From positions 1 through 57,180 of the IMG/VR virus record IMGVR_UViG_3300030107_003246: a stretch of DNA of 57,180 nucleotides, one strand, 5' to 3'. This DNA comes from a virus. The position numbers and the translations under genes are program-made. The notes beneath the pieces were generated by a model. It did not search any database and was not told where the DNA came from. It saw only the letters and a list, made by a program, of their open reading frames with translations. Shown here one piece after another: positions 10,205 to 50,295 of the stretch (position 1 is the first letter of the stretch; each line of letters starts with the position of its first letter).

Positions 10205-10215
10205 GGAGAAATAAA

Positions 10216-10512: not shown

Positions 10513-10524
10513 GTGAGGATTAGT

Positions 10525-12500: not shown

Positions 12501-12510
12501 GAGGCAAATT

Positions 12511-28313: not shown

Positions 28314-31300
28314 ATGGGCGTAAAAGTAACAGGACAATTTGAACCCGCAGGTGATTTTTCTATAGTAGATGGCGCAGATGTATCTGGAGCTATCACTGGT
28401 AGTCACTTTAGTGGTTCAGCTGCTTCAACAGGCTCATTCGGGCGTTTATTTGTTTCTTCATCTATGGAGCTTGGTGGTGGAATATTCACATCTGCTTCGA
28501 TAGCATCAGGTGGTGCTACTGGTGGAACTGGTGGTACTGGAACTGGTGGAACTGGTGGTACAGGTCAAACAGGCGGAACAGGTGGTACTGGTCAAACAGG
28601 CGCTACAGGTGGCACTGGTGGTACTGGCGGAACTGGTCACACAGGTGGTACTGGTGGTACTGGGCAAACAGGTGGTACTGGCGGAACTGGACAAACAGGT
28701 GGTACTGGTGGTACAGGAGAAACTGGAGCAACTGGTGGCACAGGCGGAACTGGTGGAACTGGTACTGGTGGTACGGGCGGAACTGGTCAAACTGGCGGAA
28801 CTGGTGGCACAGGTGAAACTGGCGGAACTGGTGGAACTGGTCACACAGGAGGAACTGGTGGTGTAGGTGCTACTGGCGGAACTGGTGGTACTGGTGGCAC
28901 AGGTGAAACAGGCGCTACAGGCGGAACTGGCGGAACTGGTGGAACAGGTACTGGTGGTACTGGCGGAACAGGTCAAACTGGCGGAACTGGTGGTACAGGT
29001 GAAACTGGCGGAACAGGAGGAACTGGAGCAACTGGTGGAACAGGTGGAACTGGTACTGGTGGTACTGGTGGAGATGGTGCTACGGGCGGAACTGGTGGTA
29101 CTGGTGGTGCTGGTACTGGTGGTACTGGTGGAACTGGGCAAACAGGTGGTACTGGTGGCACAGGTCAAACTGGTGGTACTGGTGGCACAGGTCACACAGG
29201 TGGAACAGGCGGAACTGGAACTGGTGGTACTGGTGGAACAGGCGCTACAGGTGGCACAGGTGGAACTGGTGGACAAGGTACTGGTGGTACTGGTGGAACT
29301 GGACATACAGGTGGAACAGGTGGAGATGGAGCAACAGGCGGAACTGGCGGAACTGGTGGCACAGGAGAAACTGGTGCAACTGGTGGAACTGGCGGAACTG
29401 GTGGAACAGGCACTGGTGGAACTGGTGGTACTGGACATACAGGTGGAACAGGTGGTACTGGACAAACAGGCGGAACTGGCGGAGATGGTGCTACGGGCGG
29501 AACTGGCGGAACTGGTGGAACAGGCACTGGTGGTACTGGTGGCACAGGTCAAACTGGTGGAACAGGCGGAACTGGTCAAACTGGCGGAACTGGCGGAACT
29601 GGGCATACTGGTGGTACTGGTGGAACGGGCACTGGTGGAACAGGTGGTACTGGAGCAACTGGTGGCACAGGTGGAACTGGTGGACAAGGAACTGGTGGTA
29701 CTGGTGGTACTGGTCACACAGGTGGAACTGGTGGAACTGGAACTGGTGGAACAGGTGGAGATGGTGCTACAGGTGGTACTGGTGGAACTGGACAAACTGG
29801 AGCAACAGGTGGAACTGGTGGTACTGGTGGACAAGGAACAGGCGGAACAGGTGGAACTGGACATACTGGTGGTACTGGTGGCACAGGTGGAACTGGAGAA
29901 ACGGGCGCTACTGGTGGTACTGGTGGAACTGGTGGAACAGGCACTGGTGGAACTGGCGGAACTGGGCAGACAGGTGGAACTGGTGGTACAGGTCAAACTG
30001 GCGGAACAGGTGGAACTGGAGAAACAGGCGGAACTGGTGGCACAGGTCACACAGGTGGAACAGGTGGAGATGGAGCAACAGGCGGAACTGGTGGAACAGG
30101 TGGAACTGGAACTGGTGGAACTGGTGGTACAGGCGCTGCGTCTACCGCTACTGGGGGTACTGGAGGAACTGGTGAAACAGGTGCAACGGGAGGCACAGGT
30201 GGAACTGGTGGAACAGGTACTGGCGGTACTGGTGGAACAGGCGCTACAGGTGGAACTGGCGGAACTGGTGGACAAGGAACTGGTGGAACTGGTGGTACTG
30301 GTCACACAGGAGGAACTGGCGGAACTGGACAGACAGGCGGAACTGGTGGAACAGGCGCTACAGGTGGTACTGGTGGAACTGGTACTGGTGGAACAGGTGG
30401 AGATGGAGCAACTGGTGGCACTGGTGGTACAGGTGGAACTGGGGAAACAGGCGCTACAGGTGGAACTGGTGGAACAGGCGGAACAGGCACTGGTGGAACT
30501 GGTGGTCAAGGTGCAACTGGTGGTACTGGTGGTACAGGTCACACAGGCGGAACTGGTGGAACTGGAGCAGCTAGCACAGCAACTGGTGGTACTGGTGGAA
30601 CTGGAGAAACAGGTGCCACAGGCGGTACTGGTGGTACTGGCGGAACTGGTACTGGTGGTACTGGTGGTGTAGGTGCTACTGGCGGAACTGGTGGCACAGG
30701 TCACACAGGCGGAACAGGCGGAACTGGACATACTGGTGGTACAGGTGGAACTGGAACTGGTGGAACAGGAGGAACTGGAGCAGCTAGCACAGCAACTGGT
30801 GGTACTGGTGGTACTGGTCAAACAGGCGCTACTGGTGGTACAGGTGGAACAGGCGGAACTGGCACTGGTGGAACTGGTGGTACTGGTGAAACAGGTGGAA
30901 CTGGTGGCACAGGTCAAACTGGTGGAACTGGTGGAACTGGAGCGACTGGTGGAACTGGCGGAACTGGAACTGGTGGAACAGGTGGAGATGGAGCAACTGG
31001 TGGAACTGGGGGAACTGGTGGTACAGGTGAAACTGGAGCAACTGGTGGTACTGGTGGTACTGGTGGAACAGGCACTGGTGGTACTGGTGGTGTAGGTGCT
31101 ACAGGAGGAACTGGCGGAACTGGACATACAGGTGGAACTGGTGGAACTGGAGCAGCTAGTACAGCAACAGGAGGAACTGGTGGTACTGGACAGACAGGCG
31201 CTACAGGTGGAACTGGTGGTACTGGTGGAACTGGTACTGGTGGTACTGGTGGTGTAGGAGCAACTGGCGGAACTGGTGGAACTGGGCATACTGGTGGCAC

Positions 31301-34300
31301 TGGTGGAACAGGTCATACTGGTGGAACAGGTGGAACTGGAACTGGTGGTACAGGCGGAACTGGCGCTGCGTCTACAGCAACTGGCGGAACTGGTGGTACT
31401 GGAGAAACAGGTGGAACAGGCGGAACTGGTCAAACTGGCGGAACTGGTGGTACTGGACAAACAGGTGCTACAGGCGGAACTGGTGGAACAGGTGGAACTG
31501 GTACTGGTGGTACTGGTGGAGATGGTGCTACTGGCGGAACTGGCGGCACAGGTCAAACTGGCGGTACTGGTGGCACTGGACATACAGGCGGAACTGGCGG
31601 AACTGGTACTGGTGGTACTGGTGGTGTAGGAGCAACTGGCGGAACTGGTGGCACAGGTGGAACTGGAGAAACAGGCGCTACTGGCGGTACTGGTGGTACT
31701 GGTGGAACTGGCACAGGTGGAACTGGTGGAACTGGAGCAGCTAGCACAGCAACTGGTGGTACTGGTGGAACTGGACAAACTGGAGCAACTGGTGGAACAG
31801 GAGGAACTGGACAAACAGGTGGTACTGGTGGTACTGGACATACTGGCGGAACTGGTGGAACTGGTACTGGTGGAACTGGTGGTGTAGGTGCTACTGGTGG
31901 AACAGGCGGAACTGGCGGCACAGGAGAAACTGGAGCAACTGGTGGTACAGGTGGAACAGGCGGAACTGGCACTGGTGGTACTGGTGGTCAAGGTGCTACG
32001 GGCGGAACTGGTGGTACAGGTCACACAGGTGGAACTGGCGGTCAAGGAGCAACTGGTGGAACTGGTGGAACTGGTACAGGAGGAACTGGTGGTGTAGGTG
32101 CTACTGGTGGAACTGGCGGAACAGGTGGAACTGGAGAAACAGGCGCAACTGGCGGAACTGGTGGTACTGGTGGAACAGGAACTGGCGGAACTGGTGGTCA
32201 AGGTGCTACGGGCGGAACTGGTGGTACTGGACATACAGGTGGAACAGGTGGAACTGGAGCAGCTAGTACAGCAACTGGTGGAACAGGTGGAACTGGACAG
32301 ACAGGCGCAACTGGCGGAACTGGTGGTACTGGTGGAACAGGCACTGGTGGTACTGGTGGTACAGGTCACACAGGTGGTACTGGTGGAACTGGAGCGCAAG
32401 GAGCGCAAGGTGCAACTGGTGGTACTGGTGGAACAGGCGGAACTGGTACTGGTGGTACTGGTGGTGTAGGTGCTACAGGTGGTACTGGTGGAACTGGCGG
32501 TACAGGTGAAACTGGAGCAACTGGCGGAACTGGTGGTACTGGTGGAACTGGTACTGGTGGAACAGGTGGTCAAGGTGCTACAGGTGGTACTGGTGGAACT
32601 GGAGCAACTGGTGGAACAGGTGGAACTGGAGCAACTGGTGGAACAGGTGGAACTGGAACTGGTGGAACAGGTGGTACTGGAGCAGCTAGTACAGCGACTG
32701 GTGGTACTGGTGGAACTGGTCAAACTGGCGGAACAGGCGGAACTGGAGCGCAAGGAGCGCAAGGTGCAACTGGAGGAACTGGTGGTACTGGACATACAGG
32801 TGGAACAGGCGGAACTGGTACTGGTGGTACAGGCGGAACTGGAGCGCAAGGAGCGCAAGGTGCAACTGGTGGAACAGGTGGTACTGGACAAACTGGAGCA
32901 ACAGGTGGAACTGGTGGAACAGGTACTGGTGGAACTGGCGGAACTGGGGCGCAAGGAGCGCAAGGTGCAACTGGTGGAACTGGTGGCACAGGTCAAACTG
33001 GAGCAACTGGCGGAACTGGTGGAACTGGAACTGGTGGAACAGGTGGTCAAGGTGCGACTGGTGGAACTGGTGGTCAAGGTGCTACAGGCGGAACTGGTGG
33101 TACTGGAGCGCAGGGAGCGCAAGGTGCGACTGGTGGTACTGGTGGCACAGGTCAAACTGGAGCAACTGGTGGTACTGGTGGTACTGGTACTGGTGGTACA
33201 GGCGGAACTGGAGCGCAGGGAGCGCAAGGTGTAACTGGTGGTACAGGCGGAACTGGAGCGCAGGGAGCGCAAGGTGCAACTGGTGGAACAGGTGGTACTG
33301 GTCAAACAGGTGCTACGGGCGGAACTGGTGGAACAGGTACTGGTGGAACTGGTGGTACTGGAGCGCAAGGAGCGCAAGGTGTAACTGGCGGAACAGGTGG
33401 TACTGGAGCGCAGGGAGCGCAAGGTGTAACTGGCGGAACAGGTGGAACTGGAGAAACAGGTGGAACAGGCGGAACTGGAGCAGCTAGTACAGCAACTGGT
33501 GGAACAGGCGGAACTGGAGCAACTGGTGGTACTGGTGGAACTGGTACAGGAGGAACTGGTGGTACTGGAGCAGCTAGCACAGCAACTGGTGGAACAGGTG
33601 GTACTGGACAAACTGGAGCAACTGGTGGAACAGGTGGAACTGGTCAAACTGGCGGAACTGGTGGTACTGGAGCAGCTAGTACAGCAACTGGTGGAACAGG
33701 CGGAACTGGAGCGCAAGGTGCAACTGGTGGAACTGGTGGAACAGGTACTGGTGGAACAGGTGGAACTGGAGCAGCTAGCACAGCAACAGGCGGAACTGGT
33801 GGAACTGGTGGTACAGGTGCTGCGTCTACAGCAACTGGTGGAACTGGTGGTACTGGTGGTACTGGAGCAGCTAGTACAGCGACAGGCGGAACTGGTGGCA
33901 CTGGACAAACAGGTGCTACGGGCGGAACTGGTGGAACTGGTACTGGTGGAACTGGTGGTACTGGAGCAGCTAGTACAGAAACAGGTGGAACTGGTGGTAC
34001 TGGTGGAACTGGAGCAGCTAGTACAGAAACAGGTGGTACTGGTGGTACTGGTGGCACAGGCGGAACTGGTGGAACTGGAACTGGTGGAACTGGCGGTCAA
34101 GGAGCAGCTGGTTCAGATGGTGATGATGGAGCGCAAGGTGATCAAGGTGCTCAAGGTGCTCAAGGTGCTCAGGGTGCTCAAGGTGCTCAAGGTCCTCAAG
34201 GTAATCAAGGTCCTCAAGGTGGTACTGGTGGAACAGGCGCTACAGGTGGTACTGGAGCTACTGGAGCAACTGGTGGTACTGGTGGTACTGGTGGAACTGG

Positions 34301-34844
34301 AGCAGCTAGTACAGCGACTGGTGGAACAGGTGGAACTGGAGCAGCTAGCACAGCAACAGGTGGAACTGGTGGAACTGGTGGAACAGGTGGTGCTGGTACA
34401 TCCGATGGTGGTACTTTTGACTTAGGTGCTACTCAATGTGATGGATTATATGTAGGTAATGGTGCAACCAATTCATCAGCGGCTACAGATACTGTTAGAT
34501 GTGAGGGTGATGTTATTGCTTTCTACTCATCAGATGTAACCTTAAAAGAAAATATTATTCAAATTGAAGATCCTTTAGAAAAGCTGAAAAAGATAGGTGG
34601 TTATACTTATGATTGGAAGGATAGTTATATTGAATCACAAGGTGGTTTAGATGATAAATTTATGAGAAAAAGTGATGTTGGTGTTTTGGCTCACGAAATA
34701 AAAGAAATTATGCCAGAGGTTGTTGGTGAAAATAAAAGAACAGGAATATTGGGTGTTAAATATGAAAAAATAGTTCCGTTGTTAATTGAGTCTATCAAAA
34801 AATTAACAGAAGAATTAGAGGAGTTAAAAAATGGCAGTTCCTAG
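28314..34844 (+). CDS. Giant collagen-like Gly-X-Thr repeat fibre with S74-type C-terminus
   Basis: This is a 2176-aa protein with a short unique N-terminus (residues 1-65, containing [13 protein letters not shown] as in neighbouring fibres). About 1964 residues (66-2029) of Gly-X-Thr triplets follow, with X being Gly, Gln, His, Glu, Ala, Asp or Val. The C-terminal domain has S2073-D-x2-LKEN, YTYDWKD and a terminal helix ([12 protein letters not shown]), the S74 intramolecular chaperone pattern. Gly at every third position indicates a collagen triple helix or polyglycine-II helix. Proline is nearly absent. Two regular interruptions occur: Gly-Thr-Gly and GAASTATG. A short canonical Gly-Ala-Gln/Gly-Pro-Gln part sits near residue 1940. 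AGGAA precedes ATG. Confidence 0.85.
28509..34400 (+). repeat. 5.9-kb coding repeat of 9-nt Gly-X-Thr units
   Basis: The tandem 9-nt unit is GGN-NNN-AC(T/A), repeated several hundred times with synonymous variation, so the DNA is much more G/C-rich than its surroundings while the protein pattern is strict. Longer higher-order blocks (about 100-200 nt) recur, consistent with growth by duplication and unequal exchange. Glu-rich and Leu-rich open frames in the other five frames are by-products of the repeat. Confidence 0.95.
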
Positions 34845-35880
34845 CACAGGCACTCTTAGTATGGTGGGAATCTTTTCAGAAAAAAATGAAGATGATTATA
34901 GTGCATTTAATGAAGATGGTGAATCTAATATAAGTTTACTTGGTTTATCTAGAGATGGTACTGATGATAGCAGTGGCGGAGATTTAACTATAAATACAGC
35001 TGGTGGTCAAGGGGGAGATGGAGTGGCGCCATACGCTATGAGTGAGTTTTATGGTTACGATCACGATTTAAGTATATCATATGCAGCTTTTATTCTTGAT
35101 GATTGGAATGAGGGAACAATAAATGCTGGTAATGATGTCAATATGGATACAAGAGCAACATTCAATACAACCGATTTTGAAGATGGTGACCTATATGTAG
35201 ACCACGGAACTAATCAAACTACAAACACTCAAACTGATAGACCTTTATGGACAACATATGGTACACCATCAATAGTTTCAGATGAAATGAGATTTACTAA
35301 TACTGATGAGACATATGGTATGTTTTGTAAGACAACAGACCAAAATAATCCTGGTATTAATAATGTACCTACAACTCAATGTGTTGCGTGGAGATTTAGA
35401 TTTTTTATGAATACTACTAATAATAAAGATTCGAATTTGCACATAAATATGAATACCACCAGTCATACTAATCCAGCAGTAACTACAAATTCTTATCAAT
35501 TTAGAATTAGGGATAATTCAGACCCTGCTACTGGAAGAATAGATTTTTATAAAAGAATTTCTACAACATCAAATACTTTATTGGCTAGTAGTACTTCAGG
35601 TGCTTACACTTTGGGAACAACTCAAGATTTTATTTTATCTTGGCATAGAGCTGGTACTGGTCGTTCAGCTACATATACTTGGAAGGTTGGTATGGCACCA
35701 ACCACAACACCTAGTGCTAATATAATAAAACATAATAATGAACTTACTGTAAATGATGGCACATATTTTATTGCTAGAGGAATTTCAATGAGAGCAGCTA
35801 AAGCTATGAGTGTGCCAACATCAACTCATTATCACTCTTATGATATGCTTTCTTGTGTACAGATGGATGACCCATCATAA
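34831..35880 (+). CDS. Structural protein, probable adhesin/fibre tip
   Basis: This 349-aa protein overlaps the end of the giant fibre by 14 nt, with GAGGAG as ribosome binding site. The N-terminal 80 residues ([15 protein letters not shown] ... [12 protein letters not shown]) are a motif common to marine phage virion proteins. The rest is a beta-rich domain ([43 protein letters not shown]) with a concanavalin-like look. Adjacency and coupling to the collagen-like fibre suggest it is its tip or partner. No catalytic motif was seen. Confidence 0.6.
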
Positions 35881-36218
35881 TGGCTACATATTTTTCAGGA
35901 AGTGATGGTAATATTTATGTAGAACCATATGATAATCAATTTACAGCTTCATTATACAAAACTCAATATATTCAAATTGTTGAAGATGCAGATGATGATG
36001 ATGGTGTATCTACTATGCCTGGTATATTATACGATACAAGTAATAATATGTATCAAGAATATAAGTGGAGTGCTGCTACTCTTATAGATGGTAGTGGCAG
36101 TTTTGATGAATCAAATTTACAAGGGTGTATATGGGTTTATAATTTAACTGATTCTCAAAAAAACACAATAGAAAATGATGCTCAATACATAGCTACTTAT
36201 GTCACATCAAGTTTATAA
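35880..36218 (+). CDS. Hypothetical protein, end of fibre operon
   Basis: This 112-aa acidic protein starts in a TAATG overlap with the preceding stop. It contains an Asp run (DADDDDG, about residues 41-47), Tyr/Trp-rich strands (YQEYKWSAATLIDGSGSF, GCIWVYNL) and no membrane or catalytic motif. It closes the coupled fibre block before the promoter-like element at 36247. A small accessory structural or chaperone role is possible. I do not recognise a family. Confidence 0.5.
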   Translation: MATYFSGSDGNIYVEPYDNQFTASLYKTQYIQIVEDADDDDGVSTMPGILYDTSNNMYQEYKWSAATLIDGSGSFDESNLQGCIWVYNLTDSQKNTIENDAQYIATYVTSSL

Positions 36219-36246
36219 AAATAATTGTTTTTTATATTTTTAGTTT

Positions 36247-36258
36247 ATACTTATATAT
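36247..36258 (+). promoter_or_regulatory. Putative late promoter element (TATACTTATATA) at head of modification cassette
   Basis: A variant of the recurring motif abuts the ATG at 36259. It would control the eight-gene cassette that follows. As at 25501, no ribosome binding site fits between it and the start. Confidence 0.4.
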
Positions 36259-37011
36259 ATGGGTTATAGTAATAGAGTAGAAAAAATAAAATACGATTTT
36301 GTATCACCATTCGGACCTAGCATAATGGTAGGAACTATTCCTGACAGCATATACGATGAGTTTAGTGAAATAATTCACAGAGTTATTGAAGAAAAACAAA
36401 GAAGTCACACAAAACAATTGTCAGGTAGATTAGATGAAGAATGGACTGTAGAGAGACAAGAATTATTTGAAACTAGAACTGAAGAGTTTATGACCTCTAT
36501 AGTTAATAAATATTGTACAGATTTATTGGAAAGACTTTATTCAGTTAAACATTTGTCTGAAGAAAATGACCGAAGTATTAAAGAACAAACAAATATTCCT
36601 ATAGAGGTTTTGAATACAGGTGGTTGGGTAAATAATATGGGAAGTTATGAATATAATCCAGTTCACTACCATCCGTTTTGTAATATAACGACTGTATTTT
36701 ATTTTAATAGTATTGATGGTGATTTTATAGACGAAATTATAGCACCTACAAATACGGAGAGAAATCATAATGCTCCACCATCAGAACCAGGAAATACAGA
36801 TGATGGTATGCTTGAAATAATTTACAACTCTTCACACTATTTTGAGTTGGGTACTATGAGGATAAAGCCAAAAGAAAAACAATTTTTAATTTTTCCAGCA
36901 CATTTATTACATCAGGTATATCCATTTATATCTAATAAAAAAAGAATTAGCGCTTCATTTAACTTTACAGTAAATGCTGATTCGCAAATTATAAATTATG
37001 GGGCGAGGTAA
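36259..37011 (+). CDS. 2-oxoglutarate/Fe(II) dioxygenase-like protein
   Basis: This 250-aa protein resembles the phage-type putative 2OG-Fe(II) oxygenase family (PF13759-like). It has a GGWVNNMGSYEYNPVHYHPF segment with His136 and His138, a beta core FYFNSIDG, an FLIFPAHLLHQVYPF segment with His218, and Arg229 in KKRISASFNF for 2-oxoglutarate. The iron-binding acid is not obvious and may be replaced or lie elsewhere. It should hydroxylate an unidentified protein, sugar or small molecule. It is the first gene of the cassette, lacks a ribosome binding site, and its stop overlaps the next start. An internal ATG (Met23) is a possible alternative start. Confidence 0.7.
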   Translation: MGYSNRVEKIKYDFVSPFGPSIMVGTIPDSIYDEFSEIIHRVIEEKQRSHTKQLSGRLDEEWTVERQELFETRTEEFMTSIVNKYCTDLLERLYSVKHLSEENDRSIKEQTNIPIEVLNTGGWVNNMGSYEYNPVHYHPFCNITTVFYFNSIDGDFIDEIIAPTNTERNHNAPPSEPGNTDDGMLEIIYNSSHYFELGTMRIKPKEKQFLIFPAHLLHQVYPFISNKKRISASFNFTVNADSQIINYGAR

Positions 37012-42000: not shown

Positions 42001-43034
42001 TAAGAGTGCATCACGCTGTTCCGAGAGAAGAACAAACTTCAGAAACTCTTATGTATATAGATACACCGAGACCAATATATTGGAATTCTAATATATCAGG
42101 TGAAGATTTTCAATCGAAAGCCGATTGGGCTTGGATGGTTCAACATCAATTCGAAAAAATGATATTGTTTTTAGCTAAGAAAGCTTCAATGAATTCTAAT
42201 GTTAAATACTTAACAGGTTCTGGTGGTTGCTTTCTTAATTCAATTGCTAATCAAAAAATAGTTGATTTAGGTTTATTTGATGACCACTTTTATGTACCAG
42301 CATCGGATGATGGTGGCATATCAATTGGAACTGCCTTTTATGGATATTATAATTTTCATCCTGATAAAGGTAAGGTAAATTTAAATAATAAAGAAGAGAC
42401 TGTTTTTATGGGTAAGGATTACTCTGAGGAGGAAATAATGAGTGATATAGAAAATTTTGATAAAATAATTTATGAAAAAATTGAGGATGAAGAGGAGTTA
42501 GCTAAAAAAGTTGCTTCTTTTGTACACGATGGAAAGGTTGTTGGTTTCTTTCAAGGTGGTAGTGAAATGGGGCCTAGAGCATTAGGACATCGTAGTATAT
42601 TAGGAGACCCAACTCATCCCGATATGCAAGATATAATCAATAATAGGGTAAAACATAGAGAGTGGTACAGACCTTTTGCTCCTGCTTGTACTGTAGAAGA
42701 TGCTCATAAATATTTCACACATACTACAGAAAGCCCTTATATGTTGTTAATAGCTCAAGTAAAAGAAGAATTCAAAGAGAAGTTGCCATCTATAACACAC
42801 GTAGATGGAACTGCTCGATTACAAACTGTAAGGAGAGAAACTAATCAGAGGTACTATGATGTGATAAAAGAGTTTGGAAAACTATCGGGTATTCCAGTAG
42901 TTTTGAATACTTCTTTTAATGAAGCTGGTGAACCTATAGTAGAAACTCCTGCTGATGCTATAAGATGTTTTCTTAAAAATGATATTGATTATTTAGTTGT
43001 AGAAAATTATTTAATAACACCAATCAGAGACTAA
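39039..43034 (+). CDS. Trifunctional fusion: BAHT-type heptosyltransferase, FkbM methyltransferase, NodU/CmcH carbamoyltransferase
   Basis: This 1331-aa protein starts at TTG, with GGAG 7 nt upstream and TTGA overlapping the previous stop. Residues 1-385 resemble autotransporter heptosyltransferases (TibC-like): LGDNFAWISYVEEFRKKH (98-115), TSSGLSWLAWAVDIPVV (295-311) and four Cys (339, 342, 356, 368) as in the iron-binding site of TibC. A beta-sandwich-like linker (395-500) follows. Residues 525-730 are an FkbM methyltransferase (VLDLGAHIGVF at 531-541, IKCDVEGAEYEIF at 656-668). Residues 738-1331 are a full O-carbamoyltransferase with metal-binding HHLAH (843-847) and GPRALGHRS (from 1178). 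One polypeptide thus could add, methylate and carbamoylate a sugar. Confidence 0.85.
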   Translation: MIEVVKDIEIEVKFDAGPFVQITSKAKKDTEYNVEFWDSDSDYLVFDSMIKINTWTAFSRKWYTNWRIVVYEDSKLIYQYQLDLKGKDVFIRLASNMLGDNFAWISYVEEFRKKHNCNIFCGTLFPEIFEETYDFTFWKEGSEWPSKEFYATYEVGVFGYKNEEPFYEFDNSCNKQSLSDISMQQAATDILGLPYKEIKPKLNLEKFESKNKIEGKYVCIGIHASAQLKYWNYENGWQKIVDYFLNIGYKVIYLSREKSGFMGNKIPTGVIDKSGDLPLEDRIGDLKNAELFIGTSSGLSWLAWAVDIPVVLIHGHNHSWYNFADKTKHINLENDDSVCTGCWHTDGFAPGDWYFCPKHKDTDRQFECTKKITPEMVIEGIEVMLNDKQKSIKTLQSAINLTMDVTSEVGKMWFYNTTKSEFYVRVVDPYSDLTLYTSKITFEDNTAFWLPFKYVTPWENYYLDKLNVEVYTTDQTKIKTFDVKLNDNVVNNKDEFKYVTNKFDVSWANHKEIFYADEYKGLFDLNEDSVVLDLGAHIGVFTRWVSKQNVKVCYSLEPNPTLWNGLNKTFENSDNVKLLNNALGELTEDRWLKYPQYSTSNGSFYINDWPEIEDWVNPTNYNNPFTYERDIVVSNIKCLSFDDFIEQNKIEKIDVIKCDVEGAEYEIFRNASEDYLKENVSTILLEFHHNKDRLKPILDKLIKCGFLVKYLKGDADAYDGTILFTKKKSKPVKVGEDRWVMGANIGHDSGATLVKNGKIFVSVNSERITRIKHDEANDDFPWKAMDYCLDYAGIKKDDLERIVWNGIGLPPELAIDPNGLWASRLKENGYNFSEDRLNYCTHHLAHAYSAHYSSGFEESVSIVVDAGGETNYREVIDKFFTNKIAHMKKYPIEKCVEASSIYEIKKGVFTKIYSAFKPFPEADLWPTLGQSIGEFYALGCNYIGMDGLYDAGKLMGLASYGRPEESKKRFDEPVVYLDPDPKSGDYFIRVHHAVPREEQTSETLMYIDTPRPIYWNSNISGEDFQSKADWAWMVQHQFEKMILFLAKKASMNSNVKYLTGSGGCFLNSIANQKIVDLGLFDDHFYVPASDDGGISIGTAFYGYYNFHPDKGKVNLNNKEETVFMGKDYSEEEIMSDIENFDKIIYEKIEDEEELAKKVASFVHDGKVVGFFQGGSEMGPRALGHRSILGDPTHPDMQDIINNRVKHREWYRPFAPACTVEDAHKYFTHTTESPYMLLIAQVKEEFKEKLPSITHVDGTARLQTVRRETNQRYYDVIKEFGKLSGIPVVLNTSFNEAGEPIVETPADAIRCFLKNDIDYLVVENYLITPIRD

Positions 43035-43037
43035 TAA

Positions 43038-44327
43038 ATGACTTGGGTTTTAGGTGTAAACATAGGGCATCAATCTGGCGCTACTTTAGTAAGAAGTGGT
43101 AAGGTATTTGTTTCTATAAATTTAGAAAGAATTACTAGAATTAAAAATGACAATGGCTATCCACCGCCAGAAGAAAATAATTGGGATTATTCATTAATAG
43201 AATTTCCTTGGAAAGCTATGGACTATTGTTTAGATTATGCTAACATACAGAAAACGGATTTAGATAGAATTGTTTGGAATGGTATTGGTTTAACACCAGA
43301 CCAACAAATAAGTGTAGATGGATTTTTAGTTCAGAAGTTGAAAAAAAATGGATACGATTTGCCAAATGATAGATTAAATTATTGTACACATCATTTAGCA
43401 CACGCATACTCAACTCATTACTCAAGTGGTTTTGATGAATCTATTATTTTAGTAGCTGACAATGCTGGTGAAATGAATTACAAACAAACAGTAGATGATT
43501 TTGTAGAAAATAAAATAGCACATATCCAAAAAACAAGACTTGGTGAGTGTGTTGAAGCTACTAGTATTTACGAAGTTAAGAAAGGTGTATTTAAAAGAAT
43601 ATACTCTCGCTACAAAGCAGCTTACTCATATTTTAATACAGTAGGAAAACACAAAGATGGGTCTGGTTTTAGCACTAGATATAGGTTAGGAAAGTCACTT
43701 GGAGAGTGGTATTATGATAATTGTATTCACATAGGTTTGACTGGAGATGATGCTGGAAAACTTATGGGATTAGCTCCTTTTGGAGATGAAGAAAAAGTTA
43801 GAGAAAAGTATAAAGAACCAATGGTATACATTGATAAAGATCCTAAAGCTGGTGAATACTTAATAAGAGCTCACGAATATCTTCCATATGAAGAGCAAGA
43901 AGAATTGGATGAAATGTATATAAATACACCAATACCATCTTATATGAGTGATACTATATATGAAAATGATTTTCAATCTAAAGCAGATCATGCTTGGTTT
44001 GTACAAAATCAATTTGAAAGAGTTGTTGAATTTTTAGCTAAAAAGTGTTCAATGATTTCAGATGTCAAAAACTTTTGTGCTGCAGGTGGCAGTTTCTTAA
44101 ATTCTGTGGCAAATCAAAAAATAATAGATTTGGATATTTTTGATAATCACTTTTTTGTTCCAGCAGCTGATGATGGTGGTATAAGTTTAGGATGTGCTTT
44201 TTATGGTTACTTTAACTTTCATAGTAAAAAAGGAATTTTCAACTTATCTAATAGAGAGGATAGTGCTTTTATGGGAAAAAAATATAATGAAAAAGAAATA
44301 TTAGGAGCTCTTAATGAATATAGCTAA
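43038..44327 (+). CDS. Truncated carbamoyltransferase paralogue (N-terminal domain only)
   Basis: This 429-aa protein is closely similar along its length to residues 738-1150 of the preceding fusion: GVNIGHQSGATLV, KAMDYCLDYA, RLNYCTHHLAHAYSTHYSSGF and AAGGSFLNSVANQKI. It ends at FMGKKYNEKEILGALNEYS, before the family's C-terminal domain with the GPRALG motif. It is therefore a tandem duplicate that lost the YrdC-like half that makes carbamoyl-adenylate. It could act in trans with a neighbour's C-domain, serve as a regulator, or be decaying. A 14-nt overlap with the next gene may mark where the deletion joined them. Confidence 0.8.
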   Translation: MTWVLGVNIGHQSGATLVRSGKVFVSINLERITRIKNDNGYPPPEENNWDYSLIEFPWKAMDYCLDYANIQKTDLDRIVWNGIGLTPDQQISVDGFLVQKLKKNGYDLPNDRLNYCTHHLAHAYSTHYSSGFDESIILVADNAGEMNYKQTVDDFVENKIAHIQKTRLGECVEATSIYEVKKGVFKRIYSRYKAAYSYFNTVGKHKDGSGFSTRYRLGKSLGEWYYDNCIHIGLTGDDAGKLMGLAPFGDEEKVREKYKEPMVYIDKDPKAGEYLIRAHEYLPYEEQEELDEMYINTPIPSYMSDTIYENDFQSKADHAWFVQNQFERVVEFLAKKCSMISDVKNFCAAGGSFLNSVANQKIIDLDIFDNHFFVPAADDGGISLGCAFYGYFNFHSKKGIFNLSNREDSAFMGKKYNEKEILGALNEYS

Positions 44328-46260
44328 AAAGCCACAAACCGATGTGGATATTCTTCATTATATTAATCAGACAAAAGAATTTTGGAAAGTAACAGATTTT
44401 CAAAAAGAGATATTAGATTTTGAGGGTTTCACACCACATATTCCTGATGACCTTAATTTTTACATAGGACATCCTGAAATGGCAGTAGATTACAGATCTG
44501 ATCGTGGTACTTCTTTTGGAGATATTATTCCATATACTAGATTGCCTGAGTTATTAAAAATATATTATAGAGGGTGTAAAGTATTTATACCAAAATGGTT
44601 CATTGATGTTTTTCAGCACAATCCATATATTGATGGAACACACGACTTTGATTATAAGTGGGGTTCTATGGGAACTTTTGGAACAACGATTCAGCGATGT
44701 ACTAATGTTTGGGGATTGAGAACAGAAGATTACACACCAAAATTATTTGCTTCACCGAATATTAAAAAAAGAAAAAACACTATATTGTTTACATTAAATA
44801 GTAAAACTGGTGGAAGATTTGGAGATAATGATTTATTAGAAGAAGTAGTTGAACATTTAGGAAAAAAATATCACTGTGTACAATTAGGTTTGTCAGATGA
44901 CTATTTAGTCAAATCAGCACATAAACACGTTTTAAATATTTCTAGAAATAAATTAATTGACTTTGTTGCAGAATTTCCTATATACATAGGCGCACAGAGT
45001 AGTATATATCATATAGCAAAGGGTTTGGGTTTAAAGACAATTGGGATATTGCCAGAAAAACAAAGACTAAAAGAAGCAGGTAGTGTACAAACTATATTTG
45101 GTGGATTTCATCCAGACTATGTACAATTACCTTTGCTTACAGTAACCAATACTATGGAAGTTGTACCTTGTGGAGAAGAACATTTTGAAAGAGCTAAATA
45201 TTTTCAACCAATGTTTCCCAATCAACCGCCAAATGGGGGCGCAGGTGAAAACTCTATAGCAGGATATAATGACACTATAGCACATTTAGGTTGGTTATAT
45301 CCCGATACACCACATTTAACTATGAGCCCTTTGGGAACTGAAAGATGCCCTACGCTATCTAAAGAAACTATTGATATGGCTTTAAATGATGAGATATATC
45401 CATTCAATGATGATAGATTGTGGGATTATTACAAACATAAAGAGTTGTGGACTGCACCAAATACTGATCCTCTAAATATTGCAAAAGGCTTTTCAACAGT
45501 GCTTAAAAAAGAAAAACCTAAAATAATATCATCTCATATACCTAGAACAGGTGGAAATTTATTTAGAAATGTTTTATACGATTTATATGGTGTTCGTGAT
45601 TGTTTAGAAAATGTAAAAGATAAAATATATTATGATGAAAAGTATTTTACACGTAAAGGTGATATGGTTATGTACGAAGATTATGGAGATAAGCCAGAAT
45701 ATAATTATTATGAAGTCAATCCCACAGTGGATGTTCCACAATACGAATGTATACACGGGCATTTTAGATTAGGTAAATATAAACAATTATTTAATTCTCA
45801 TAAATTAATTGTTTGGCTTAGAAATCCTATAGATAGATTAATATCACACTATTACTTTTTAAAAAATTCACCACTACATATCGATCCTATACAAAACAAA
45901 CTGATAGCAGAAGAATTAGACTTATATCAATTTTGTGAGTTAGAAACTTCTAAAAATATCTATAAAAAGTATTTTCAAAAATATTCTAAAAATATAGACT
46001 TCATAGGAATTACTGAAAGTTATAATGATAGTTTGAGAAAGTTTGAAAAAATGTTTGATGTTGAAGTAGGAGATACATATCCATATTTTGATATAGAATC
46101 AGGCGATTCAGATTTTAAAAACAATATACAAAATTCAAAGTGGGCTGTATATAAAAAAGAATATGATAAAATAGATAGAAACTTTATAAAAAAATTAAAT
46201 CAAGATGACATAGAAATATACAATCAATCAGTAAGAATAAATTCGGAATATAAATTATGA
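44314..46260 (+). CDS. GT9-like glycosyltransferase fused to sulfotransferase
   Basis: This 648-aa protein has AGGAG 9 nt before ATG. Residues 45-310 resemble heptosyltransferase/ADP-heptose GT9 folds (GTSFGDIIPYTRLPELLK, GAQSSIYHIAKGLGLKTIGI). Residues 400-648 form a sulfotransferase: ISSHIPRTGGNLFRNV (405-420) as the PAPS 5'-phosphosulfate loop and VWLRNPIDRLISHYYF as the 3'-phosphate motif. The fusion could transfer a sugar and then sulfate it, or act as two enzymes on one glycan. A sulfated phage glycan would be unusual. It overlaps the following gene by ATGA. Donor sugar and acceptor are unknown. Confidence 0.75.
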   Translation: MNIAKKPQTDVDILHYINQTKEFWKVTDFQKEILDFEGFTPHIPDDLNFYIGHPEMAVDYRSDRGTSFGDIIPYTRLPELLKIYYRGCKVFIPKWFIDVFQHNPYIDGTHDFDYKWGSMGTFGTTIQRCTNVWGLRTEDYTPKLFASPNIKKRKNTILFTLNSKTGGRFGDNDLLEEVVEHLGKKYHCVQLGLSDDYLVKSAHKHVLNISRNKLIDFVAEFPIYIGAQSSIYHIAKGLGLKTIGILPEKQRLKEAGSVQTIFGGFHPDYVQLPLLTVTNTMEVVPCGEEHFERAKYFQPMFPNQPPNGGAGENSIAGYNDTIAHLGWLYPDTPHLTMSPLGTERCPTLSKETIDMALNDEIYPFNDDRLWDYYKHKELWTAPNTDPLNIAKGFSTVLKKEKPKIISSHIPRTGGNLFRNVLYDLYGVRDCLENVKDKIYYDEKYFTRKGDMVMYEDYGDKPEYNYYEVNPTVDVPQYECIHGHFRLGKYKQLFNSHKLIVWLRNPIDRLISHYYFLKNSPLHIDPIQNKLIAEELDLYQFCELETSKNIYKKYFQKYSKNIDFIGITESYNDSLRKFEKMFDVEVGDTYPYFDIESGDSDFKNNIQNSKWAVYKKEYDKIDRNFIKKLNQDDIEIYNQSVRINSEYKL

Positions 46261-47870
46261 GTAAGGTATTTGGTATAATAGGTCACGCTCACGATTCTAC
46301 AGTTGCTTATATAGAAGATGGTGAAATAAAAGTGGTTATAGAAGAGGAGAGAATTCGTAAGATTAAATCTTGGGCACTTAGTGGGGTTTATCCGTGGTTT
46401 GCTATGGATACAATAGAAAATGATATGGGATATAAATTAGAGGATTCGGACTATATTTGTATAGCAGAAGTAGCAGAGCCAGATTTAGATAGATATAAAT
46501 CAGAAGAGATGAGAAGAAAGGTGGTTACATATCCACATCATTTACTTCACGCAGTTGGCGCATATTATACATCAGGTTTTAAAGAAAAGACTTTAGTTAT
46601 TACTCACGATGGAAGTGGTTTTAAAACTGTTGGTAGGGTTTATTTAGGTTATGATGATAAATTACATTTAGTACATAAACAACCAAAAGAAAAATCAGCG
46701 TCTATTGGACAATATTTTGGTCGTTGTACAACTCAGTTTGCACCAAAAGGAGCTGTGTGGCATTCTCTTAAAGATGAGGGAAAGCTTATGGGTATGGCTG
46801 GTCACGGAAAATATAATGAAGAGATGTATAATAAATTAAAACAATTATTACACTACACCAATGATTTGAATTTTGGTCCTTGTGGAAATTGGAATAGAGT
46901 AGAAACATTTTTTGAATCACTTCGTGAAGAGGAATCTGATTGGAGTGATAATTTCGAACTAAGAGCCGAGTGGGCTTTCAATGTACAAAAGTTATTAGAA
47001 GATGTTTTTTTAGAATATTTAGAAGATTTACATAAATTTTATCCTGAATATAAAAGGGTGGCAGTTGCTGGTGGCATTTTTGCTAATGTAAAATTAAATC
47101 AAAAAATAAATGAATTGGATTGGGTTGATGAAGTTTATGTGTATCCTGCTATGAGTGATTCTGGACTAGCATTAGCAGCTGCTATAATGAAATCAGTAGA
47201 ATTAGGTGAGTGGGAAAATAAAAGATTTGAAAATGTATTTTTAGGAAACGATTATACAAAAGACGAAATAAAAAAAGAAGAAAAAGAATGGAATTTCAAT
47301 AAAGAAAAATTTGACTCTAAAAAAGTTGCTAAACTATTAAATGATGGAAATATTATTGGTTGCTTTCAAGGAAAAATGGAATATGGACCTAGAGCATTGG
47401 GTTCAAGAAGTATTTTAGTTAGAGCTACCGATAAAGAGATGCACGAAACTTTAAATAATAGATTAGAAAGACACGAAATAATGCCATTTGCTCCAATTAT
47501 TTTAGGAGAGAAAGTAGATGATGTTTGTAAAAATACAAAATCAAAAATGACTGCAGAGTTTATGACAATGTGTTATACAGTAAAAGATGAGTGGGTTGAT
47601 AAAATACCAGCAGTAGTTCATAGAGTGGATAATACACTAAGACCTCAATTAGTTTTTAAAGAAAGAAATAAATTCTTTCATAGTATTTTAAATGAATATT
47701 ACAAAATATCTAAAATACCAGTTCTCTTAAACACATCTTTTAATGGTCACGGACAACCGATTATATATGATTTGAATCAGCCATTTGAACATTTAGAAAA
47801 AGGAACTGTTGATTATTTAGTTTTGGAAGATAATTTATATTGGAGTAAAAATGAGAAGAAGGCCGATTAG
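46257..47870 (+). CDS. O-carbamoyltransferase, NodU/CmcH family
   Basis: This 537-aa protein is complete, with both domains. The N-terminal Kae1-like part has HHLLHAVGAYYTSGF (metal His) and GMAGHGKYNEE. The C-terminal YrdC-like domain has FQGKMEYGPRALGSRSIL and IPVLLNTSFNGHGQPI. The family moves a carbamoyl group from carbamoyl phosphate, through carbamoyl-adenylate, to hydroxyls of sugars. It differs clearly from the fused copy at 39039, so it was probably acquired or diverged separately and may carbamoylate another position. It is coupled at both ends. Confidence 0.88.
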   Translation: MSKVFGIIGHAHDSTVAYIEDGEIKVVIEEERIRKIKSWALSGVYPWFAMDTIENDMGYKLEDSDYICIAEVAEPDLDRYKSEEMRRKVVTYPHHLLHAVGAYYTSGFKEKTLVITHDGSGFKTVGRVYLGYDDKLHLVHKQPKEKSASIGQYFGRCTTQFAPKGAVWHSLKDEGKLMGMAGHGKYNEEMYNKLKQLLHYTNDLNFGPCGNWNRVETFFESLREEESDWSDNFELRAEWAFNVQKLLEDVFLEYLEDLHKFYPEYKRVAVAGGIFANVKLNQKINELDWVDEVYVYPAMSDSGLALAAAIMKSVELGEWENKRFENVFLGNDYTKDEIKKEEKEWNFNKEKFDSKKVAKLLNDGNIIGCFQGKMEYGPRALGSRSILVRATDKEMHETLNNRLERHEIMPFAPIILGEKVDDVCKNTKSKMTAEFMTMCYTVKDEWVDKIPAVVHRVDNTLRPQLVFKERNKFFHSILNEYYKISKIPVLLNTSFNGHGQPIIYDLNQPFEHLEKGTVDYLVLEDNLYWSKNEKKAD

Positions 47871-50295
47871 AGCTCCTTGGGAGGGCGAATTTATGAAACA
47901 GAGACAAGACCATATTAAAATAATTAAAGATCCTATTATTAGATGTATACACACTAATGATGAATATTTTACCTTATATGTAGAACAATATATAAAGAAT
48001 CAAAAAGGACAATTGTGTTTTTGGAATTCATATAGTCTAAATGGTATGAATGCATGGCATGGAAATTGGGTTCAATGGCACGCTGATTGGGTTTTTAAAG
48101 TGTATGGGTTAAATAAAGGTAAATATACTTTTTTAAAAAGATATGATTATGATTTAAAAGGTAAAAATGTACAAATAGTTTTAGATACAAAAGATTGGGA
48201 AGAAGCTGGTGAGTGGTTAGGTTATTGTAAGAAATTTCAAAAAGAAACTGGTTGTAAATTATTCATCGCATCAGATGAGTTTAATAGAGGACATTTTTCC
48301 AATCAAAATACAGACCAGATTATAAAATTTACAGAAACTTATAATAAAGGTGTAGAGACAATTGATGGCATAGGTGTACCACCTGATGAATATAGCAATT
48401 CACCGATACACGATTTATATGCTAGGTATGATATAGGTAGGTTTCCTTTGACTACTAGAAAGAAGTATGGATTTGAAAGAGACCAATGGAGAGTTGATGA
48501 TAAAGATAAAGAAAGTTCACATAACTCTATTACTTTTAAACAACAGAATAAATTACCTTTAGGTTTAATTGAAATGATGAATTTTACATTCGATGGTTGG
48601 AAAAATCCTGTGACTATTTCACAATCACAATTAGATGAATATTATGGTATAGTTGATAAAGATGTAGAAATAGAGGAAGCAACATCAGCTGACATAGTAA
48701 AACAAATACTTGGATTCAAAACAAAATATTGGGATGGTGTAGATTTAAAAAAAGAAGGACATAGAAAAATAAAAGGAGAATTTACTCAACACGAATTCTT
48801 TTCAGGTGGATTTCATAGTTGGGGTAAAGGAGAAAATGCCACACGAGTTGCTATACAAATATTGAGTTACAATAAACCTTACTATTTAAAAAGAACTTTA
48901 GATTCTTTAATGGAAGTTATAGAACACAATGATAAAATTTGTGTATTGGAACAATCTGATAAACCTGATTTGAAAGAACAAGCAATTGCTGTTTGTAAAG
49001 AATATGATAATATAACTATAATTTCTATTGATGAAAATTTAGGACAAAGAGGTGCAACAAATAAAGTTTGGGAAAGTGGATTTTTTGATAATTGCCAATA
49101 CATTATGTTTTCAGACCACGATAATGAATATCACGAACCATTAACTATACTTTGTGATAAATTAGATGAAGAAAATAATGTGACGATAGCAACATTTTAT
49201 AATTCACCCGAACACGACATTACACACAAAGATGGTAATTGGTTATACAAACAGACTGCTAGAGCTGGTAATATGATGATGAGGCGTGATGAATTAATTC
49301 AAATGCTACCAATTGATGTAGACTTATATTCAGAGACAAAAACAGATGAGGATTACTGTGCTTGGTTTGCAGGTTTAGATTGGTGGGTACAGTGGTGGCA
49401 CGATGAAAGTGGTGGTAAACAAAATAGAGATAATTTTGTAGCTTGTTATATGGGTGGTTGTACACATTTTGGAGTAGAATCAACTTGGCAAGGTAAATAT
49501 GATGATGAAATTCCACGACACGAATCACTTTTGATGAAAGATAAAACTATGGAACAGATAGTAAAAAAATATCCACCGAGAAGAGAGTATAATCACGGAA
49601 AAGAGTGGTGGTATGAAAAAGAAAAGCTTGATTTAAAAGATGTTACATTGGTAATAGTGGATTGTATAGATTATGAAAGAGCTTTAAGAGCTGTCAATAT
49701 TTCTACTATATATGCCAAATTTGGAGATGTTAAATTTTTTACATCTATGGATAAAGATAATGATGATATAGTAAAAATACCACATTGTCAATCTAATTTT
49801 GATGTTATACATTTTATGTGGAAGAAAATGAATTCATATATCAAAACTAAGTATATTTTACATATAGAATTTGATGGTTTTATTTTAAATCCAAAAGCTT
49901 GGAAAGATGAGTTTTTAAATTATGATTATATAGGTGCACCGTGGTGGTATGAAGAAAATAATGTTGGAAATGCTGGATTTAGTTTAATAAGTAAAAAAAT
50001 GTTAGACTTTATACAAAAAGATGATGTTATGGACTTATATCCATCAGATGATGACGCTATATGTAGAATTAATAGAAAATATTTAGAGGAAAACGGAATA
50101 AAATTTGCACCTGAAGAGTTAGCAGCTGATTTCTCTTTTGAGGCTAATGAAAAGCGTGGTGATAAGTGGGATGGACAGTTTGGATTTCACAGTCCATCAA
50201 TGGAAAATGAAAGACACCCTAATAAATTTAGAGGTGGTATAACAAATATTGATAATTGGCCTGATAAAGATAAGATTAGATGGCCGAATGGTTAA
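47851..50295 (+). CDS. GT2-family glycosyltransferase fused to DUF5672 domain, with BAHT-like N-terminal module
   Basis: This 814-aa protein overlaps the previous gene by 20 nt. ATG 47893, after GGAGGGC, is an equally good start. Residues 30-160 resemble the N-terminal module of the 39039 heptosyltransferase (YDLKGKNVQIVL, GEWLGYCKKFQKETGCKLF). Residues 331-560 are a GT-A fold GT2-like transferase (IQILSYNKPYYLKRTL, SDHDNEY at 421-427 as the metal/donor site). Residues 595-790 match DUF5672 (DYIGAPWWYEENNVGNAGFSLIS, 689-708), associated with glycosyltransferases. The likely role is adding sugars to the same glycan. It ends the cassette; a promoter-like element follows. Confidence 0.8.
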   Translation: MRRRPIRAPWEGEFMKQRQDHIKIIKDPIIRCIHTNDEYFTLYVEQYIKNQKGQLCFWNSYSLNGMNAWHGNWVQWHADWVFKVYGLNKGKYTFLKRYDYDLKGKNVQIVLDTKDWEEAGEWLGYCKKFQKETGCKLFIASDEFNRGHFSNQNTDQIIKFTETYNKGVETIDGIGVPPDEYSNSPIHDLYARYDIGRFPLTTRKKYGFERDQWRVDDKDKESSHNSITFKQQNKLPLGLIEMMNFTFDGWKNPVTISQSQLDEYYGIVDKDVEIEEATSADIVKQILGFKTKYWDGVDLKKEGHRKIKGEFTQHEFFSGGFHSWGKGENATRVAIQILSYNKPYYLKRTLDSLMEVIEHNDKICVLEQSDKPDLKEQAIAVCKEYDNITIISIDENLGQRGATNKVWESGFFDNCQYIMFSDHDNEYHEPLTILCDKLDEENNVTIATFYNSPEHDITHKDGNWLYKQTARAGNMMMRRDELIQMLPIDVDLYSETKTDEDYCAWFAGLDWWVQWWHDESGGKQNRDNFVACYMGGCTHFGVESTWQGKYDDEIPRHESLLMKDKTMEQIVKKYPPRREYNHGKEWWYEKEKLDLKDVTLVIVDCIDYERALRAVNISTIYAKFGDVKFFTSMDKDNDDIVKIPHCQSNFDVIHFMWKKMNSYIKTKYILHIEFDGFILNPKAWKDEFLNYDYIGAPWWYEENNVGNAGFSLISKKMLDFIQKDDVMDLYPSDDDAICRINRKYLEENGIKFAPEELAADFSFEANEKRGDKWDGQFGFHSPSMENERHPNKFRGGITNIDNWPDKDKIRWPNG

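Follow-up and report, generated by a model that had tools for sequence, protein, structure and literature searches.

In Riftia cuticle collagen, an animal protein, galactosyl-threonine stands in the Y position of the repeat and serves as sugar carrier in place of hydroxyproline. Among bacterial enzymes, TibC, which together with AAH belongs to the bacterial autotransporter heptosyltransferase (BAHT) family, transfers heptose from ADP-heptose to the autotransporters TibA and AIDA-I and requires an iron finger to do so, and genes of this family often precede that of the substrate autotransporter (PMC4358343). The collagen-like Gly-X-Thr repeats of BclA3 of Clostridioides difficile (compare BclA of Bacillus anthracis) are O-glycosylated on Thr, with Ser also accepted, by SgtA, the product of a neighbouring gene (PMC7157674). 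Virion proteins of the mycobacteriophages Che8, Corndog and Myrna are decorated by phage-encoded glycosyltransferases (PMC12363180, citing Freeman 2023), and the Mimivirus glycosyltransferase L230 modifies the virus's own collagen-like, low-proline proteins (PMC9614988). An E. coli prophage collagen was unglycosylated when expressed recombinantly (PMC3368898), and glycosyltransferases of environmental phages have been attributed to DNA protection or to a change of the host surface (PMC10202952, PMC7029224). Here we describe a virus record of 57,180 bases (IMG/VR IMGVR_UViG_3300030107_003246; this whole stretch is called the window below), a fragment of a T4-like phage in which the gene for a long Gly-X-Thr fibre lies near a cassette of enzyme genes that includes a TibC-type protein. 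We consider it likely that this locus is a phage-encoded protein O-glycosylation system, in which the nearby collagen-like tail fibre would be the substrate and the cassette would decorate the glycan. The features on which this proposal chiefly draws are the following.

28314-34844, plus strand: long collagen-like tail fibre gene, an open reading frame of 2,176 aa between upstream structural genes and the sheath
28509-34394, plus strand: G-X-T repeat region (residues 66-2027), 599 triplets, 519 with Thr at Y, interrupted by GT and ST[AE]T breaks
34530-34724, plus strand: Peptidase_S74 intramolecular chaperone at the fibre tip (residues 2073-2137; PF13884, 43.9 bits, cut-off 22)
39069-40184, plus strand: TibC/Aah-type protein O-heptosyltransferase domain, by family match (residues 11-382 of the 39039-43034 protein; TIGR04414, 278.1 bits, cut-off 200; PDB 4rap, E=1.1e-52)
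39336-39338, plus strand: codon of the residue aligned with the TibC catalytic base Asp-110 (role from PMC4358343), D in 83/83 aligned viral proteins
40053-40142, plus strand: four-Cys iron finger, Cys 339, 342, 356 and 368, aligned with TibC Cys-339/342/358/370, each C in 83/83

The locus resembles each of the described systems in part. With the BAHT enzymes TibC and AAH and their substrates it shares the enzyme family and the position of the enzyme gene near that of a repetitive, hydroxyl-rich surface protein, but here the candidate substrate is a collagen-like phage tail fibre rather than an autotransporter, the candidate acceptor is mainly Thr and not Ser, and the enzyme is phage-encoded, fused to an FkbM and a carbamoyltransferase domain and accompanied by extra decorating enzymes. 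The combination of Gly-X-Thr repeats and a nearby glycosyltransferase gene seen for BclA3/SgtA is found here at the level of the genes, although BclA3 is a spore-surface protein with GPT repeats, where those of the fibre are GGT, and SgtA adds N-acetylglucosamine. Like the mycobacteriophages, this phage encodes its own glycosyltransferases, but in those phages, which have other hosts, capsid and tail-tube proteins are modified rather than collagen-like fibres. Mimivirus L230 differs in that a single bifunctional enzyme of a eukaryotic giant virus hydroxylates and glucosylates Lys (PMC9614988), and the Riftia protein in that its sugar is galactose. An earlier sequence-only reading of this DNA had called the locus an undescribed system; this holds for the phage version, but BclA/SgtA, TibC/TibA and the glycosylated mycobacteriophage virions are relatives that had already been described. 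By the tests made the enzyme is a TibC family member, and the whole, as judged from its genes, is a new phage version of described kinds. The open-access literature searched, which leaves aside subscription papers and preprints, yielded nothing linking TibC-type enzymes or heptosyltransferase with collagen-like phage fibres, and O-heptosyltransferase together with phage led only to work on amino-acid starvation in Cronobacter.

The N-terminal domain of the 39039-43034 protein scored 278.1 bits against TIGR04414, over the curated cut-off of 200, and the solved TibC structures 4rap and 4rb4 matched it at E ~1e-52. In TibC, Asp-110 is the catalytic base, and Arg-286, Trp-305, Thr-226 and Lys-230 are sugar-binding (PMC4358343); Asp-110, Lys-230, Arg-286 and Trp-305 are retained in the window protein and Thr-226 is replaced, conservatively, by Ser. 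Among 83 aligned viral proteins the D, W and K were retained in all 83 and R286 in only 25, while all four cysteines of the iron finger were present in 83/83. On the curated score and these active-site residues, the domain at 39069-40184 is assigned to the TibC/Aah-type family, which glycosylates repetitive adhesin proteins and whose enzymes form a dodecamer ring. The three TibC-type proteins of the window's group formed one clade in a tree (support 1.0). Among 50,697 phage records only four had a match to TibC, two queries giving the same set, and none was listed as a cyanophage of the hosts seen with the oxygenase OX2 and the third carbamoyltransferase. The window genes that were read include no recognisable autotransporter; what lies near the TibC gene, which starts 4.2 kb past the end of the fibre gene, is the phage fibre.

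The fibre open reading frame and the same-strand genes downstream of it exist as the earlier reading had described them, and its Gly-X-Thr fibre with hundreds of Thr in the Y position was borne out by the count. Residues 66-2027 contain 1,052 Gly, 601 Thr, 19 Ser and 2 Pro but neither Lys nor Arg, and a dynamic-programming parse gave 599 G-X-Y triplets that cover 92% of the 1,962 residues, with Thr at Y in 519 and GGT in 376; the long Gly-X-Y runs expected of a collagen-like protein are thus present. The tract is interrupted by 46 GT dipeptides, 18 ST[AE]T tetrapeptides and one lone G, and 20 of the resulting 66 segments (one of them, at the start, empty) are exactly 11 triplets long, 11 being the commonest spacing of the breaks. 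The G-X-T fraction was 0.79, against a mean of 0.38 and a maximum of 0.43 in 300 composition-preserving shuffles. Repeat copies agree at about 66% of their DNA positions and the codons have mixed third bases (Gly GGT/GGA/GGC 532/369/142; Thr ACT/ACA 398/192), so that it is the amino-acid pattern, far more regular than the DNA, that is kept. Plain DNA slippage or chance, considered as the origin of the repeat, was rejected on the same copy agreement and third bases and on the shuffles. The match to Pfam Collagen (PF01391) stayed under its cut-off (24 bits at 34083-34247 vs 27.2). Judged by collagen propensities, the composition of the bare shaft looks unstable as a collagen helix; instead of a triple helix the shaft might fold as a polyglycine-II type bundle. 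All but one of the Ser residues of the window repeat lie in 18 AAST motifs, which are not obviously conserved targets because the sister genome G002 has only 8 and the related G039 only 2. Two contigs about 99% identical to the window (L100 and L187) carry in-frame repeat-length variants of the same fibre, which suggests either ongoing expansion and contraction or assembly collapse.

Co-occurrence of fibre and cassette in related genomes had been put forward as a check, and it came out in favour of the pairing: the GGT fibre was found in all three cassette genomes with the upstream region visible (G000, G002 and G005) and in 0/36 informative cassette-less loci. The latter are those, among 80 sheath loci, that show a fibre-like gene or S74 end with at least 1 kb upstream and no cassette; the cassette contigs G001, G003 and G004 end before the fibre and were excluded as uninformative. 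In the sister genome G002 (101 kb; sheath 92% identical) the slot is occupied by a GGT fibre of 2,704 residues and by all five large proteins shared with the window's cassette, at 80-97% identity. The G005 contig opens within GGT repeats, of which the last 34 residues are visible, continues into a different fibre end and carries the cassette at 57-76% identity, without the FkbM domain and without a separate second carbamoyltransferase gene. Between these genomes the tip of the fibre has been swapped (35% identity in G002, another end in G005), while the shared cassette proteins are 57-97% identical. In G039, a fourth lineage whose terminase is 91% identical, a GGT fibre is cut off by the end of the contig. 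The slot in cassette-less relatives is empty or occupied by concanavalin A (ConA)-like lectin genes or, in L028, whose contig does not reach its fibre, by oxygenases and a sulfotransferase. The ConA-like lectin (Laminin_G_3) genes stand in the cassette slot upstream of the sheath in L024, L043 and L075, which have other fibres.

Not every part of the cassette belongs to its constant core. Hydroxylases had been counted among the enzymes that decorate the fibre, and as a rule this fails: the two oxygenases are absent from G002, which keeps the fibre and the rest, and relatives of the oxygenase OX2 are widespread (384 phage records, mostly cyanophages) while TibC is rare. The oxygenases and the 38482 methyltransferase had no match in 100,000 of the 101,285 bases of G002. 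Nor is a hydroxylase conserved together with the collagen and its target residues, since G002 lacks both oxygenases and the repeat offers 2 Pro and no Lys; hydroxylation of the fibre, tried as a candidate modification, was weakened on these grounds. We class the two oxygenases and the 38482 methyltransferase as accessory rather than core; variation within the group also extends to the FkbM domain and to the second of the carbamoyltransferase genes.

To look beyond this group, eight aligned TibC-type domains were used to scan environmental viral contigs, which gave at least 534 confirmed relatives. The 80 best loci were retained, 78 of which lie outside the window's group, and Gly-[Ser/Thr] collagen-like arrays were sought in stretches of up to 10 kb on each side of TibC. 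With the same detector and all lengths included, arrays were present in 34/78 viral TibC loci but in only 1/80 sheath and 0/80 TerL loci. The control loci were shorter (median 8.0 kb for sheath and 7.3 kb for TerL vs 16.8 kb for TibC), and the comparison is therefore also given for loci of at least 10 kb, in which the values were 34/73 for TibC, 1/32 for sheath and 0/30 for TerL. The arrays comprised at least 41 triplets in 30 of the 34 positive TibC loci and only 8-17 in the other four; where both flanks were complete (26 of the 78 loci), 17 had an array, two of them weak. We also used 36 whole records, namely 32 of the 34 TibC-scan records longer than 50 kb from outside the window's group (two near-duplicates being omitted) together with L006, L226, L227 and L228. 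A DNA pattern detected an array in 28 of these 36, and 18 of those 28 had over half of their array no more than 10 kb from TibC, against 6.3 expected under random placement, a null that does not correct for shared ancestry; such a result was reached in about 1 in 200,000 simulations. After four near-duplicates had been removed by eye the result was 15/24 against 5.1 expected. The order array-TibC-sheath, as in the window, was found in 6/6 TibC loci that show both array and sheath (about three independent lineages). FkbM domains occurred near TibC in 26/86 loci and sulfotransferases in 7/86 (five from one lineage), compared with 0/79 for each in the shorter TerL loci, and these counts fit a mechanism of sugar decoration.

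In the reverse direction, 47 records with Gly-Thr-Ser arrays, those of at least 30 kb among 80 listed of 120 stretches with the DNA pattern, were compared with 47 records which came largely from the GGT pattern and otherwise from the TerL and sheath scans and are not a random draw. TIGR04414 matched in 22/47 array records (21 over the cut-off) and in 4/47 comparison records (all four over it; Fisher p 5e-5). TibC was present within a short stretch in 5 of 94 array loci. TibC is linked to the dense type of array, Gly-[Ser/Thr]-[Ser/Thr], and within the window's group to the fibre with Gly-Gly-Thr repeats.

Individual loci illustrate the pairing. In the Microcystis elabens phage Mel-JY01 a Gly-Ser/Thr-Ser array (open frame 2-3052) precedes, by 1.7 kb, the gene for a GT4-TibC protein, which is labelled an FkbM methyltransferase in its record; the 1,016-residue plus-strand array frame (L226:2-3052, PP395634.1) overlaps minus-strand hypothetical genes annotated at 1-651 and 739-2298. 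L006 carries a Gly-Ser/Thr-Ser array, a GT4-FkbM protein and a sulfotransferase-TibC fusion within one stretch. In G044, TibC stands together with a carbamoyltransferase 41% identical to the window's third, dehydrogenases, a kinase with heptose-7-phosphate kinase TIGR02198 as its best family (112 bits, under the cut-off of 345) and then a Gly-Ser/Thr fibre; in both G033 and G044 the array and TibC stand in one operon-like row. Two Methylobacter genomes (L518:6881-9071 and L520:6893-9071) encode on the chromosome a Gly-Thr-Ser/Ala/Asn-tract protein of 279-283 residues with a signal-peptide-like N-terminus, followed about 50 bp later by a TibC-type gene, and to judge from sequence this two-gene unit is a minimal enzyme-substrate pair. 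No array was found in 76/80 bacterial TibC loci.

Further observations were made in the same set of loci. In L007 two adjacent TibC-type genes (10130-11954 and 11947-13971) converge on a protein of tail type whose Ser/Thr repeats are TNAGYAGTATNAGFATNSS-like; this repeat is not collagen-like and may represent another type of substrate. An autotransporter-like repeat protein, recognised by eye, adjoins TibC in the bacterial locus L542. A contig from a Winogradskyella metagenome-assembled genome (L521) carries phage-type sheath and tube genes as well as TibC and is for this reason probably a phage contig binned with the bacterium. The L006 portal gene (9952-12378) appears, by eye only, to contain intein-like insertions, two of its blocks resembling intein ends.

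The remaining genes between the fibre and the sheath are listed here.

34831-35880, plus strand: small gene after the fibre, no family; homologues in L025, L031, L043 and L075 stand behind non-GGT fibres too
35880-36218, plus strand: small gene, no family matched
36259-37011, plus strand: 2-oxoglutarate-Fe(II) oxygenase (2OG-FeII_Oxy_5), accessory; PF13759, 50.2 bits, cut-off 27; no match in G002
37011-38489, plus strand: two-domain oxygenase, accessory; PF13640, 28.2 bits, cut-off 27; no match in G002
38482-39042, plus strand: methyltransferase-like protein, weak assignment; PF00398, 19.8 bits, under the cut-off of 24; no match in G002
40635-41159, plus strand: FkbM-type methyltransferase domain (residues 533-707 of the TibC fusion); PF05050, 58.2 bits; TIGR01444, 76.7, cut-off 37.7; none in the G005 homologue
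41259-43034, plus strand: NodU/TobZ-type carbamoyltransferase, third domain of the fusion; PF02543, PF16861; phrog_1601, 414 bits
43038-44327, plus strand: second carbamoyltransferase gene, N-terminal domain only; PF02543, 78.7 bits, no PF16861; no separate copy in G005
44314-46260, plus strand: N-terminal region without a family, followed by a sulfotransferase domain (residues 399-637); PF03567, 40.1 bits, cut-off 22
46257-47870, plus strand: third carbamoyltransferase, complete; PF02543, PF16861; PDB 9s2t, 7xb6 and TobZ 3ven
47851-50295, plus strand: GT2 glycosyltransferase with DUF5672 and a faint TibC-like N-terminus; PF00535, PF18922; TIGR04414, 19.2 bits, far under the cut-off
50357-50662, plus strand: conserved small gene marking the far edge of the slot; precedes the sheath in most sheath loci that reach that far
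50757-53264, plus strand: tail sheath, the anchor for comparing relatives; PF04984, PF17482

The sequence-only reading had placed the fibre just upstream of a 14-kb enzyme cassette. It is near, but the genes at 34831-35880 and 35880-36218 intervene, and for the cassette itself (36259-50295) the length and the enzyme content were borne out, while hydroxylases are not a constant part, none being matched in G002. It comprises seven enzyme genes, or eight if the weakly matched methyltransferase is counted, on a single strand, and the six gaps computed from the 37011 gene onward are -20 to +3 bases. Terminase, sheath and tube were assigned in the window by family match; portal and capsid were named from sequence and synteny. 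The FkbM methyltransferase, NodU/TobZ-type carbamoyltransferase, sulfotransferase and GT2 domains all belong to classes of enzyme that decorate sugars. No segment that would span a membrane was seen in any cassette protein (the highest 19-residue hydropathy being 1.38), an argument against a pathway for surface polysaccharide. Relatives of the third carbamoyltransferase were found in 145 phage records, mostly of cyanophages, and a scan with this protein returned its own group and one weak match. The 43038-44327 product is 97% conserved in G002, above its cassette neighbours (80-88%), and has no C-terminal domain match; this carbamoyltransferase may be a partner subunit. The C-terminal part of the 37011-38489 oxygenase weakly resembles prolyl 4-hydroxylase (PDB 3itq, E=5e-4). 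A PDB search with the GT2-DUF5672 protein gave no match, and an AlphaFold model of the 44314-46260 N-terminus from a three-row alignment was unusable (pLDDT 29.5).

What was observed is the membership of the enzyme family, the active-site residues, the order of the genes and a statistical link of TibC with Ser/Thr collagen-like arrays; from these we infer that the fibre is the substrate and ADP-heptose the donor, as well as the order of steps and the benefit proposed here. The fibre and the enzymes would be made together during infection, and the soluble TibC-type domain (39069-40184) would put heptose, probably taken from host ADP-heptose, on numerous hydroxyl groups along the shaft ahead of assembly. 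The glycan would be lengthened by the GT2-DUF5672 protein, which may also attach sugar to the shaft itself, and perhaps by the N-terminal part of the sulfotransferase protein, and the FkbM methyltransferase, the carbamoyltransferases and the sulfotransferase would cap the sugars. The product would be a densely decorated, hydrophilic shaft on the virion, and the nearly proline-free shaft might in this way be stiffened or stabilised, kept soluble, and shielded from proteases or stray binding. A stabilising role of the Thr sugar like that in Riftia is suggested by analogy only.

Several observations weigh against this proposal. The TibC sites mapped in TibA are Ser and not Thr (PMC4358343), and with 601 Thr and 19 Ser in the fibre repeat this means that TibC may not act on its Thr. 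No gene for ADP-heptose synthesis was matched in the window or in G002 among the two families used, the adenylyltransferase TIGR02199 (matched in 9/38 records, none over the cut-off and none in the window) and the heptose kinase (0/2 for G000 and G002); the host would therefore have to supply ADP-heptose. The co-occurrence within the window's own group comes from three closely related genomes, and the arrays of other phages are Gly-[Ser/Thr]-Ser, another flavour than Gly-Gly-Thr, so that the two are joined by our interpretation. Arrays and TibC are also often seen apart: 44/78 TibC loci had no array in the stretch examined, many of them being cut short, as was the case for 8/36 whole TibC records by pattern, for 8/14 TibC loci with a sheath in view and for 7/80 TerL loci that have TibC but no array in the stretch seen, while 25/47 array records were without TibC. 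The loose Gly-X-Ser/Thr tract detector scored in 28/47 comparison loci, with TibC in 3/28 of these records (G033, G044 and G146) and in 1/19 of the others (G158), so that such a tract alone does not predict TibC; two of seven G-X-T-rich comparison records (L120, L146, L156, L167, L172, L193 and L200) carry TibC. Finally, carbamoyltransferases, which had been tried as the key linked enzyme, were not clearly enriched near TibC (3/86 vs 1/79 TerL loci).

An explanation of a different kind is that the cassette remodels the host surface, O-antigen or capsule, against superinfection or other phages and adjoins the fibre by chance. Glycosyltransferases in the host-recognition regions of pelagimyophages have been interpreted as changing the host surface (PMC7029224), and carbamoyltransferases and oxygenases are common in cyanophages, but the lead enzyme here scores over the curated cut-off of a protein-modifying family, membrane-spanning segments are lacking, so that nothing in the cassette looks like a flippase, a polymerase or a Gtr-type protein, and both phage loci and two bacterial gene pairs tie TibC to Ser/Thr arrays. 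We regard a host-surface role as quite improbable. The same low degree of belief is given to the idea that the cassette glycosylates some other virion protein, for example the 34831 product or tail adhesins, and that the GGT fibre is an unmodified neighbour. It would accommodate the absence of Thr among the mapped TibA sites, the position of the 34831 gene between the fibre and the enzymes, and the many TibC loci without an array. However, homologues of the 34831 product accompany non-GGT fibres in loci that have no cassette (L025, L031, L043 and L075), which argues that it is the GGT repeat and not this gene that goes with the cassette, and arrays are the recurring neighbour of TibC across phages.

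It might also be supposed that the slot before the sheath is simply a cargo site, in which the fibre and the enzymes came together by chance or hitch-hiking and have no functional link, as the different cargo in the same slot of relatives could indicate (ConA-like lectins in L024, L043 and L075; oxygenases and a sulfotransferase in L028). Both the proximity and the reciprocal tests across many phage records, the constant order of array, TibC and sheath in 6/6 loci and the two-gene pairs in Methylobacter speak against this, and we think it very unlikely. The glycosylation of the fibre by its neighbouring cassette thus remains the reading that we prefer, and because TibC and a fibre are paired here and similar pairings occur elsewhere, some phages probably glycosylate their own fibres by TibC-type enzymes. 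A bolder version holds that TibC heptosylation is a general route of phages to glycoprotein fibres and that in this phage's group the sugar replaces proline and hydroxyproline, such that the shaft, some 2,000 residues of (Gly-Gly-Thr)n, owes its folding or its solubility entirely to hundreds of Thr bearing a methylated, carbamoylated and sulfated heptose glycan. This we hold to be doubtful; if true, it would amount to a heptose-stabilised collagen-like material, with a freely exchangeable tip on a sugar-coated rod.

The linkage described here points to a further role for phage glycosyltransferases, that of glycosylating the phage's own fibres, and since both a candidate enzyme and a candidate substrate are named the idea is testable. 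The fibre would also make a natural case in which to ask if a collagen-like shaft can do without proline when sugars stabilise it.

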